From NCBI RefSeq assembly GCF_004168035.1, contig NZ_SDPU01000022.1, forward strand, positions 62,001 to 126,000: 64,000 nucleotides of DNA, read 5' to 3'. Both the position numbers and the translations under genes were made by a program. This document shows positions 7,798 to 22,919 of the stretch, piece after piece. Position 1 is the stretch's first letter; each line of letters begins with the position of its first letter. This DNA is from Nocardioides iriomotensis (lineage in GTDB: Bacteria > Actinomycetota > Actinomycetes > Propionibacteriales > Nocardioidaceae). Below the pieces are notes generated by a model, which saw only the letters and a list, made by a program, of their open reading frames with translations, was not told the DNA's origin and did not search any database.

Positions 7798-8541
7798 TCA
7801 GACCCGGCGCAGGACCGCGGTGACCTTGCCCAGGATCGTGGCGTGGTCGCCGTCGATCGGGTCGTAGGCCTGGTTGTGCGGCAGCAGCCAGACGTGCCCG
7901 TCCTTGCGCTGGAAGGTCTTCACCGTCGCCTCGCCGTCGAGCAGCGCGGCCACGATGTCGCCGTTGTCGGCGGTCTGCGCCTGCTTGACCACGACGTAGT
8001 CGCCGTTGCAGATCGCCGCGTCGATCATCGAGTCGCCGACGACCTCGAGCATGAACAGCGTGCCGTCGCCCACGAGCGAGCGGGGGAGCGGCAGCACCTC
8101 CTCGAGGTTCTCCTCGGCGAGGATCGGGCCGCCGGCCGCGATCCGGCCGACCAGCGGGACGAGCTGCGGCTGCGGCTGGGCGTCGCCGATGCCGGTCACG
8201 TCGCCGGTGTCGCCCGGCTCGCCGGCGAACGCCGCCGGCTCGGCGGCTGCGCCGCCGCTGCCGGGGTCGAAGACGGAGAGCGCGCGCGGCCGGTGCGGGT
8301 CGCGCTTGAGGTAGCCCTTCTCCTCCAGCACGCGCAGCTGGTGGGCGACCGAGGATGAGCTGGTCAGCCCGACCTGCTCGCCGATCTCCCGCATGCTCGG
8401 GGGGTAGCCGCGGTGCTCGATGGAGTCCTTGATGACGGTGAGGACACGCTGCTGCCGGGGCGTGAGGCCGGAGGCGTCGGGAGGTCCGTCGGGCAGCTCG
8501 GTGACGGTGCCGTGCCCTGATGCGGTCTTCTTGCCAGCCAT
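7798..8541 (-). CDS. lexA: LexA SOS repressor
   Basis: The 247-residue protein has an N-terminal winged helix (about residues 25-90: [20 protein letters not shown], then [12 protein letters not shown]), an acidic Gly/Ala/Pro linker longer than in E. coli LexA, and an S24 self-cleavage domain. The cleavage bond is Ala136-Gly137 within GRIAAGGP. The catalytic dyad is Ser171 (VVGDSMIDA) and Lys208 (EATVKTF). It represses DNA-damage genes until RecA filaments trigger self-cleavage. Minus-strand GAGGA precedes the ATG by about 7 nt. Its promoter carries a LexA box (8671-8686) over the -35 element, consistent with autorepression. Putative targets here are the LysM gene and the dnaE2 operon. Confidence 0.97.
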
Positions 8542-8644: not shown

Positions 8645-8674
8645 ACCGTAGGGCAGAGCACCCTCCGGGTTCAA
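8645..8674 (-). promoter_or_regulatory. lexA: lexA promoter
   Basis: On the minus strand, a TTGAAC -35 (8674-8669) is separated by 18 bp from a TACGGT -10 (8650-8645). The LexA box overlaps the -35. This predicts a leader of about 100 nt before the lexA ATG at 8541. Confidence 0.55.
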
Positions 8675-8686
8675 ACACTTGTTCGA
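8671..8686. promoter_or_regulatory. LexA (SOS) box, lexA/SDR intergenic region
   Basis: TCAAACACTTGTTCGA differs at one position from the actinobacterial consensus TCGAAC-N4-GTTCGA. It covers the -35 of lexA and ends 18 bp before the SDR start codon on the other strand, so LexA bound here could affect both genes. Confidence 0.85.
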
Positions 8687-8704: not shown

Positions 8705-9538
8705 ATGCCGGGCATGACGCCCGCCGCCCCCGCTCCCGTCGCCGTCGTCACCGGGTCCGCCCGCGGGATCGGGCGGGGCATCGCGCAACGCCTGGTGGCG
8801 CGGGGGTACGCCGTCGTCGTCACCGACGTCGACGGCCCCGCGGCCCGCCGTACAGCCGAGGAGGTGGGGGCGGTCGCCGGCCTCGCCCAGGACGTCCGCG
8901 ACGAGGCGTCGCACGCGGCGGTGGCCGCCGAGGCCGCCCGGCACGGACGCCTCGCGGTGTGGGTCAACAACGCCGGCGTCGGCGACGACGGGACGTTGGT
9001 CGGCGTCTCGTCGGAGTCGGTGCGCCGGCTCGTGGACGTCAACCTGCTCGGCGTGCTGTGGGGGATGCGCGCGGCGCTCGCGGCGTTCGGTCCGGAGGGC
9101 GGCGACGTGGTCAACGTGGCCTCGGCCTCGGCGCTCGGGCCGGTCCCCGGGCTCGCGGTGTACGCCGCCACGAAGGCGGCCGTCGTGTCCGTCACCACCT
9201 CCGCGTCCATCGAGGCACCGCGCGGGGTGCGCCTCCATGCGCTCTGTCCCGACGGCGTCGATACCGCGATGGTCGCCGCCATGGACCCGGCTGGCCCGGC
9301 CCGCGCGATGGTGCACTCCTCCGGGCGGCTGCTCACCGTCGACGAGACCGCCGACGCCGCCGTCGCCCTGGTTGGCAGCGGCCGGGTGGTCCGCACGCTG
9401 CCGACCTGGCGCGCGCCGCTGATCCGGTCGGGGTCGCTGCTGCCCTCCAGGACGGGGCCGGCGTTCCGCGTGTTCGAGCTGGTCGGGCGCCGCGTGATGC
9501 GGCGACACGCTCGAACACGTGTGCGACCGGAGGCTTGA
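8705..9538 (+). CDS. Short-chain dehydrogenase/reductase (SDR)
   Basis: The 277-residue protein is a classical SDR: the Rossmann motif TGSARGIGRG (Gly-rich T-G-x3-G-x-G), NNAGVGDD, a catalytic Ser in NVASASA and YAATK (Tyr-x3-Lys). It should reduce or oxidise a hydroxyl/keto group with NAD(P)H, and the substrate is unknown. The start may be ATG 8705 or ATG 8714; neither has a strong ribosome binding site. It stands between lexA and the SOS-type LysM gene. Its last codons contain a LexA-box-like sequence (9511-9526), so it may simply be embedded in the SOS locus without being part of the response. Confidence 0.85.
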   Translation: MPGMTPAAPAPVAVVTGSARGIGRGIAQRLVARGYAVVVTDVDGPAARRTAEEVGAVAGLAQDVRDEASHAAVAAEAARHGRLAVWVNNAGVGDDGTLVGVSSESVRRLVDVNLLGVLWGMRAALAAFGPEGGDVVNVASASALGPVPGLAVYAATKAAVVSVTTSASIEAPRGVRLHALCPDGVDTAMVAAMDPAGPARAMVHSSGRLLTVDETADAAVALVGSGRVVRTLPTWRAPLIRSGSLLPSRTGPAFRVFELVGRRVMRRHARTRVRPEA

Positions 9539-9594
9539 TTCGTTCGAACACGTGCTCTACGGTCGAACTTGTGTTCGATCGAACAGGCTTTCGA
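9511..9594. promoter_or_regulatory. Cluster of four LexA-box-like sequences upstream of the LysM gene
   Basis: Box A, TCGAACACGTGTGCGA (9511-9526), has one mismatch. Box B, TCGAACACGTGCTCTA (9544-9559), has two mismatches, both in the right half-site. Box C, TCGAACTTGTGTTCGA (9563-9578), is a perfect TCGAAC-N4-GTTCGA match. Box D, TCGAACAGGCTTTCGA (9579-9594), has one mismatch and abuts C directly. Box A lies in the end of the SDR gene. Only box C is a confident site alone; the spacing suggests cooperative LexA binding. The LysM ATG is 118 bp past box D. Confidence 0.85.
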
Positions 9595-9712
9595 CTCCGG
9601 GCAGGGTCCGGGCGGGGCGGGTTCGCGAAAACTGTCGGTGGGGCTCGATACACCTTCAGCCATGGACACGCTCACGCACCGCACCACCGCTTCCTTCCCC
9701 CGGAGGTCTGAG

Positions 9713-10114
9713 ATGAGCACCCTCGCCGTCGCACCTGGTTATGCAGCGCCCCGCGAGCGCGCGGTCCGTGCCGCCCGGCCGGCCCGGCCTGCCGCCCGCG
9801 CCGCGGCCCCGGCGCCCGCCGCCCCGGTCCGCCTCACCCGGCGCGGCCGGCTGGTCGTCACGCTGCTGTTCGTCGTGGCGCTCACGGTGCTCGCCACGGT
9901 GTTCGGCGCCACGTCCGCCGCGACCGGGGAGGCCGGCACCCCGGTGCCGACCCGCACCGTCGTGGTCCAGGAGGGCGACACGCTGTGGGCGATCGCGGGC
10001 GAGGTGGCCGCGCCCGGCGACGTGCGCGAGATGGTCCACCGCATCCAGGAGCTCAACGCGCTGCCCGGGTCCGGCCTGACGCTCGGCCAGGAGCTGGCAG
10101 TGCCGCTGGGCTGA
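9713..10114 (+). CDS. LysM-domain membrane protein, probable SOS-induced division inhibitor
   Basis: The 133-residue protein has a basic Ala/Pro/Arg-rich N-terminus (1-45), one TM helix (about 46-66, LVVTLLFVVALTVLATVFGA) and an extracytoplasmic LysM domain (82-131: VQEGDTLWAIAG to LTLGQELAVPLG). The ATG at 9713 follows a GGAGG ribosome binding site. The architecture and place beside lexA match YneA of Bacillus and Rv2719c of Mycobacterium, membrane-anchored LysM proteins made during SOS that slow septation by acting at the wall. Known for the family: LexA control and division delay. Seen here: the LexA boxes and domain layout. The division role is inferred. No hydrolase domain is present. 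Confidence 0.83.
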   Translation: MSTLAVAPGYAAPRERAVRAARPARPAARAAAPAPAAPVRLTRRGRLVVTLLFVVALTVLATVFGATSAATGEAGTPVPTRTVVVQEGDTLWAIAGEVAAPGDVREMVHRIQELNALPGSGLTLGQELAVPLG

Positions 10115-10203
10115 GCGCCCGCGCACGTCGGGCGACCGACCAGGCGACCGACAACAGACGTGCCTCGACCTCCTCGACCCGGGTCCGCAGGCATGAGGGG
10201 AAG

Positions 10204-10238
10204 AAGGGCGGAGCCGCTGCCCGTGCGGCTCCGCCCTT
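10204..10238. terminator. Bidirectional terminator between LysM gene and polyprenyl synthase gene
   Basis: A perfect 14-bp stem, AAGGGCGGAGCCGC paired with GCGGCTCCGCCCTT, has a 7-nt loop. A-rich flank on one side and TT on the other suit termination of both convergent genes. Confidence 0.85.
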
Positions 10239-10252
10239 CGTCATGTCCGGCG

Positions 10253-22865: not shown

Positions 22866-22919
22866 TTGAGGACTGTCGGGGGAGCGGTGTACCGTTCAGG
22901 TATTCGAACATGTGTTCGA
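22866..22919 (+). promoter_or_regulatory. SOS promoter and perfect LexA box of the dnaE2 operon
   Basis: A TTGAGG -35 (22866-22871), 18-bp spacer and TACCGT -10 (22890-22895) are followed by TCGAACATGTGTTCGA at 22904-22919. This is an exact TCGAAC-N4-GTTCGA LexA box inside the longer palindrome TTCGAACATGTGTTCGAA. The box covers the expected transcription start, a typical repressing position. The leader to the first ATG is about 170 nt and contains a three-copy 8-bp repeat. Confidence 0.9.

Follow-up and report, generated by a model that had tools for sequence, protein, structure and literature searches.

The lexA–lysM Region of Nocardioides iriomotensis

The window analyzed here, i.e., the whole 64,000-nucleotide stretch of N. 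iriomotensis DNA to which all coordinates refer, contains the gene order lexA–SDR–lysM. The lexA gene (7798–8541, minus strand) encodes a protein with the Pfam domains LexA_DNA_bind and Peptidase_S24, which scores 235.6 bits against NCBIfam TIGR00498 (cut-off 110.95), and is accompanied by its own SOS box at 8671–8686 (no strand assigned; TCAAACACTTGTTCGA), the TCAAAC variant of which recurs at lexA in relatives. Among relatives, lexA's own box usually reads TCAAACANNTGTTCGA, an operator conserved with its one mismatch beyond the Nocardioidaceae as well. The second gene (8717–9538, plus strand, given as open reading frame coordinates with the exact start codon unsettled) encodes an SDR-family oxidoreductase (Pfam adh_short); tblastn places it between lexA and lysM in some Nocardioidaceae and finds it missing in others, even within the same genus (L020 and L021).

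The third gene, lysM (9713–10114, plus strand), encodes a protein of 133 aa, in which one hydrophobic segment, assigned by inspection (LVVTLLFVVALTVLATVFG), precedes a C-terminal LysM domain at residues 84–131 (Pfam LysM, 28.1 bits versus 20.9). Its leader carries, at 9694–9706 of the plus strand, the sequence CTTCCCC, which is present in most leaders of the family, and then GGAGG (9702–9706), the Shine-Dalgarno sequence of the short form of the protein. The YneA of Bacillus subtilis is an SOS-induced division inhibitor with a single TM segment and a LysM domain, encoded near lexA (PMC13396833, PMC3989709), and requires the LysM residues D46 and T47 for its activity (PMC13396833). The D–T pair occurs in the N. 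iriomotensis protein as part of a GDTLW motif that is invariant in six genus-level sequences, but the protein differs from YneA in scoring under the cut-off of the curated YneA equivalog (NCBIfam NF010723; 44.5 bits versus 60), so that its placement in the YneA/Rv2719c-like class follows instead from the domain order and the linkage to lexA. The adjacency of lysM to lexA, under SOS boxes, is conserved across the class Actinomycetes. By position and domain content, the lysM product is probably a membrane-located division inhibitor of the YneA/Rv2719c type, which agrees with an earlier note on this DNA that had regarded it as a putative division blocker. The divS gene of Corynebacterium glutamicum, which encodes an SOS-induced division suppressor not significantly similar to YneA (PMC3989709), likewise lies near lexA and shares with lysM its SOS-type control, a likeness drawn from the published description.

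Four LexA Boxes Upstream of lysM

The region upstream of lysM contains four LexA boxes (no strand assigned), located at 9511–9526 (box A, TCGAACACGTGTGCGA), 9544–9559 (box B, TCGAACACGTGCTCTA), 9563–9578 (box C, TCGAACTTGTGTTCGA), and 9579–9594 (box D, TCGAACAGGCTTTCGA). Counted against the consensus TCGAACNNNNGTTCGA, an actinobacterial type that differs from the LexA box of B. subtilis, box C is perfect, boxes A and D have one mismatch each, and box B has two. Relative to a putative promoter, P1, box A lies upstream of the −35 element, box B in the spacer between the −35 and −10 elements, box C over the −10 element and the start site, and box D, which abuts C, just downstream of the start region. 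Box A still falls within the SDR gene, close to its 3′ end, the stop codon (9536–9538) lying downstream of the box. Sites of the TCGAAC-N4-GTTCGA type at its promoter mark lysM as a predicted member of the LexA regulon.

The occurrence of such a cluster was compared with chance by means of a first-order Markov model of the 64-kb window (300 simulations) together with a Poisson estimate. For sites with no more than one mismatch, the model predicts 0.15 per 64 kb, as against 5 observed, and for those with at most two mismatches it predicts 2.6, of which no more than 2 fell within any 84 bp across the 300 simulated windows; the Poisson estimate puts the chance expectation of a four-site cluster at 1.7e-7 for the window and 1.2e-5 for the genome. 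The earlier note, which had described four LexA-box-like sequences in 84 bp, a perfect C, single mismatches in A and D, an abutting C and D, and a box A within the end of the SDR gene, is thus borne out on all these points, and the cluster lies well beyond chance. The abutting C–D pair occurs a single time in the whole 4.7-Mb genome. Upstream of the other identifiable SOS genes of this genome, namely recA (L009), uvrA (L013), and an alkB-like gene (L008), each box with no more than one mismatch stands alone within 200 bp, in line with the earlier statement that one box is the usual number for SOS genes. A perfect LexA box at 22904–22919 overlaps the start region of the gene for a DUF6504 protein.

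Among 85 unique promoters of the Nocardioidaceae, a site with at most two mismatches is present at the position of box C in all 85, of box D in 84, and of box A in 79, the latter about 50–54 bp before C, while box B (at most three mismatches), counted like the P1 and P2 elements over 87 promoters, is found in 73, at exactly −19. The A–B–C–D geometry is fixed across the family, and the information per column amounts to 1.5–2 bits over most of B, C, and D, falling mostly below 0.5 in the flanks. The retention of the extra boxes in sister species had been set beforehand as the test of the cluster, and the counts show A, B, and D to be kept. This conservation supports the assignment of the four sites as LexA boxes under strong selection.

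A class-wide search for the abutting pair (pattern TCGNACNNNNGTTCGATCGAANNNNNNNTCGA, one mismatch allowed) returned matches in 74 of 296 genomes and 39 of 103 genera, with none for the reversed control. In nearly all of the loci fetched from this search the pair is flanked by matches to lexA and to a LysM gene, the exceptions being L232, where the contig is truncated and the LysM gene missing, and L237, where no lexA match lies in reach. The C–D pair between lexA and a LysM gene hence recurs across the Actinomycetes and is not peculiar to this genome. Streptomyces reportedly has no clear homologue of any known SOS division regulator (PMC9380542).

Overlap of Box B with the Putative Promoter P1

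The putative P1 is of the SigA type, TTGATT-N17-TACGGT, with the −35 element at 9535–9540 and the −10 element (TANNNT) at 9558–9563 of the plus strand, separated by a 17-bp spacer; both are assigned by sequence and are weak matches to the Escherichia coli consensus. A generic sigma-70/terminator scan found nothing, including P1, its consensus being that of E. coli and uninformative for this host. The TTG of the −35 element is conserved at 82–100% per column, and the TA and the last T of the −10 element at 100% within the clade that carries box B. The two elements are interlocked with the boxes: the right half of box B, GCTCTA, overlaps the −10 element in such a way that its TA opens TANNNT, the last T of which is the first base of box C.

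Across the family, the right half of box B reads GCTCTA or GATCTA instead of GTTCGA, and the left half shows 100% conservation of TCGAAC in 71 promoters. The mismatches of box B are therefore themselves conserved and coincide with the −10 element, and box B would be degenerate, with its two conserved mismatches, because its right half doubles as the P1 −10. Judged from this pattern, box B is a compromise held between operator and −10 element. In one locus (L103) box B has been lost, yet TTGATT and a −10-like hexamer are retained.

P2, a Putative PafBC-Type Promoter Downstream of the Boxes

A second putative promoter, P2, of the PafBC/RecA-NDp type (TGTCGGTG-N8-TACACC; 9633–9654, plus strand), is assigned from the published motif and its conservation in the family, and lies 38 bp downstream of box D with no LexA box over it. 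Once activated by ssDNA, PafBC redirects the SigA holoenzyme (PMC11804915); its motif has been defined as TGTCGG-10N-TA-3N-T (PMC8151990). On the coding strand P2 fits this motif through TGTCGG-N10-TA and departs from it in the last base, which is C for T, and which differs from T in most members of the family too. The genome has adjacent homologues of pafB and pafC, which match the chains of solved PafBC structures at E values of about 1e-60 and 1e-50, and contains 13 matches to the strict motif (reversed control, 0), behind which are located, among others, genes of the damage type such as uvrA and a radA-like gene, as well as a gene for a mycothiol-transferase fold and a SWIM gene.

Of the 87 promoters, 70 carry the P2 element on the coding strand and none carries it on the opposite one. 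In 12 promoters the PafBC element is found at P1 instead, directly before box C and sharing the −10 element, and in this sister clade it occupies the position of box B, the g2-type species being without that box. The two arrangements exclude each other: no promoter carries PafBC elements of both the P1 and P2 types (P1 only, 12; P2 only, 70; neither, 5) and none combines box B with the P1-type element (box B only, 73; P1 only, 12; neither, 2), although these counts span related species, so that Fisher values calculated from them overstate independence. The P1 state is also seen in several outgroup families. In a tree of LexA fragments (FastTree, local supports only), it falls on the basal branches of the Nocardioidaceae and on the outgroups, box B together with P2 falls in one derived clade, and the changes between P1 and P2 over the whole tree number at least 3; in this tree, the Kribbella-like "P2" calls are regex matches that are not trusted, and L119, one of the rows with box B, is also flagged as P1 by a looser regex.

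A Probable Leaderless Start at ATG 9662

An in-frame upstream ATG (9662–9712, plus strand) lies at +29 from P2, a leaderless distance, and would add 17 codons to lysM. In this genome the first ATG or GTG of genes with the PafBC motif commonly falls 28–29 bases beyond the T that opens TGTCGG. In all 10 species that have an ATG at P2 +28/29, this codon shares the frame of the LysM gene and the frame is open, with the distance to the LysM start ranging from 13 to 34 codons in eight different values, which implies that indels have kept the frame, the 10 species being related rather than independent cases. A GTG at the same position is open in L149 and runs into a stop in L183. Species in the P1 state were left out of this survey because the ATG or GTG at that place is part of their box C. 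In most Nocardioides a start codon is absent there, the feature being limited to the genus of the window and a few neighbors.

An RNA Element in the lysM 3′ UTR

Between the lysM stop codon and the next gene lies an RNA element that seems not to have been described before (10156–10243, plus strand), which comprises a covarying hairpin with the loop TCGACCC, a linker GGGGAAG (10197–10203), and a terminator-like hairpin. Two-sided, pairing-preserving changes are seen in 21 of its 23 predicted pairs over 20 sequences, which were picked by the loop and linker motif, so that the invariance of loop and linker, and not that of the stems, is partly by construction. A covariance model gives one match each in 14 of the 15 genomes sampled that are Nocardioides-like or the organism's own, located just downstream of lysM on the same strand where coordinates are comparable; it found none in four g2 genomes, its matches in other families are weak, and no credible match to the element was obtained in Rfam. 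The linker is complementary to the CTTCCCC beside the lysM Shine-Dalgarno sequence, and the two sequences are retained together in 56 of 87 loci; the exceptions show no compensatory change. Pairing between GGGGAAG and CTTCCCC, which would join the 5′ and 3′ parts of the lysM message, is offered as a hypothesis. A separate candidate, sRNA pairing with the recA leader (through an RNA-motif match on the minus strand), was rejected, as it is not conserved in the recA leaders of 29 relatives.

A Model for the Control of lysM

In the model proposed here, which we regard as likely on the genomic evidence, a LexA-repressed P1 and a LexA-independent P2 would drive lysM such that either damage sensor suffices (OR logic). 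The model builds on the observed boxes, motifs, conservation, spacing, and exclusivity, and on the presence of pafB, pafC, and lexA; from these we infer occupancy, promoter activity, the leaderless start, and protein function. In the uninduced state, LexA bound to A–D would cover P1, with A above the −35 element, B over the spacer and −10, C over the −10 and +1, and D just below, and should keep the RNA polymerase off P1 until the RecA-promoted cleavage of LexA. Upon damage, ssDNA-bound PafBC would activate P2 through the housekeeping polymerase, the predicted footprint of which (from about 9607 onward) is clear of box D; in species with a shorter gap, LexA bound to D might hinder P2. The mRNA from P2 would probably be leaderless, starting at ATG 9662 and yielding a longer N terminus, and that from P1 would use the Shine-Dalgarno start at 9713. 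The OR logic would apply to the clade with box B and P2, and an AND-like logic to that in the P1 state.

A broader reading, which we put forward tentatively and hold to be possible rather than probable, joins these features into one history for a single clade of the Nocardioidaceae, in which the PafBC element left P1, where the shared −10 made the control AND-like, for a separate, LexA-free and OR-like P2, its former site was filled by a fourth LexA box, part of the clade gained a leaderless, extended isoform, and the single-copy 3′ RNA, through the pairing of its GGGGAAG linker with CUUCCCC, came to provide post-transcriptional or sRNA-type feedback.

The earlier note, which mentioned neither P2, nor the overlap of box B with the −10 element, nor the class-wide C–D pair, nor the mycobacterial precedent, had taken the multiple boxes to suggest very tight repression with a delayed, cooperative release. 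Developed in full, such a reading makes the four boxes cooperative operators, through which a toxic division blocker would be induced in an extremely tight, delayed, and switch-like manner and LexA would be the sole damage input, and it can draw on the conservation of all four boxes, the exact 16-bp register of C and D kept class-wide, an A-to-C spacing of 51–54 bp that is near five helical turns, and the single boxes of the other identifiable SOS promoters of the genome. It is nevertheless unlikely, because the conserved PafBC-type promoter below all of the boxes, by virtue of which an induction of lysM without the removal of LexA should be possible, undercuts a tight, delayed, and LexA-only release, and the homologous operon of Mycobacterium tuberculosis responds to PafBC (PMC8151990).

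More doubtful again is that only C and D are true operators, with A and B as evolutionary residues, A standing at the place of the lexA box of more compact relatives and B being a by-product of the spacer. Relative to C, the box at −53 is indeed lexA's own TCAAAC box in many other families, B has two mismatches, and the g2-type species manage without it; in the Nocardioidaceae, however, lexA has a box of its own besides A, which is held between −50 and −54 in 79 of the 85 promoters, and the complete conservation of the left half of B over 71 promoters exceeds what the promoter needs. That the boxes bind another regulator with a TCGAAC half-site, as has been suggested of ArsR-type regulators for SOS-box-like sites in mycobacteria (PMC8151990), is very improbable, given that the motif also precedes recA, uvrA, the alkB-like gene, and lexA in the same genome and that the array is linked to lexA class-wide.

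Relation to Known Systems

The proposed dual control by LexA and PafBC has its closest parallel in the lexA–Rv2719c (chiZ) region of M. tuberculosis, for which one SOS box for lexA, and three together with a PafBC motif for Rv2719c, have been described (PMC8151990), the multiple SOS boxes being credited there to Dullaghan et al. 2002. The two regions share the divergent lexA and LysM division regulator, several SOS boxes, and the PafBC motif, and control by multiple boxes and PafBC is therefore already known (PMC8151990). The N. iriomotensis region differs in its four boxes for lysM, the intervening SDR gene, the location of B in the P1 spacer, and a PafBC element that would act further downstream as a promoter of its own, followed by a probable leaderless start in frame. 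The novelty lies in a fourth box that overlaps the −10 element, a rewiring between P1 and P2, a probable leaderless isoform, and the 3′ RNA. The locus offers a testable case of the LexA/RecA and PafBC sensors being wired to one division checkpoint, with a wiring that alternates among close relatives between a shared promoter and two separate ones, and, should the 3′ RNA element prove functional, SOS control in actinobacteria would gain a post-transcriptional level.

Promoters of both types on one gene are also known from the recA of M. smegmatis, which has one PafBC-dependent and one LexA-controlled promoter (PMC11804915) and in this respect resembles lysM. The recA of the Nocardioidaceae has a layout of a LexA P1 and a PafBC P2 like that of lysM, differing in having one LexA box rather than four. 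A PafBC-type motif is seen near the single LexA box at both uvrA (L198/L013) and recA (L009). In five genomes (G669, G673, G674, G678, and G683) the recA matches are split in two or lie in an open frame of 721–795 aa, as expected for inteins.
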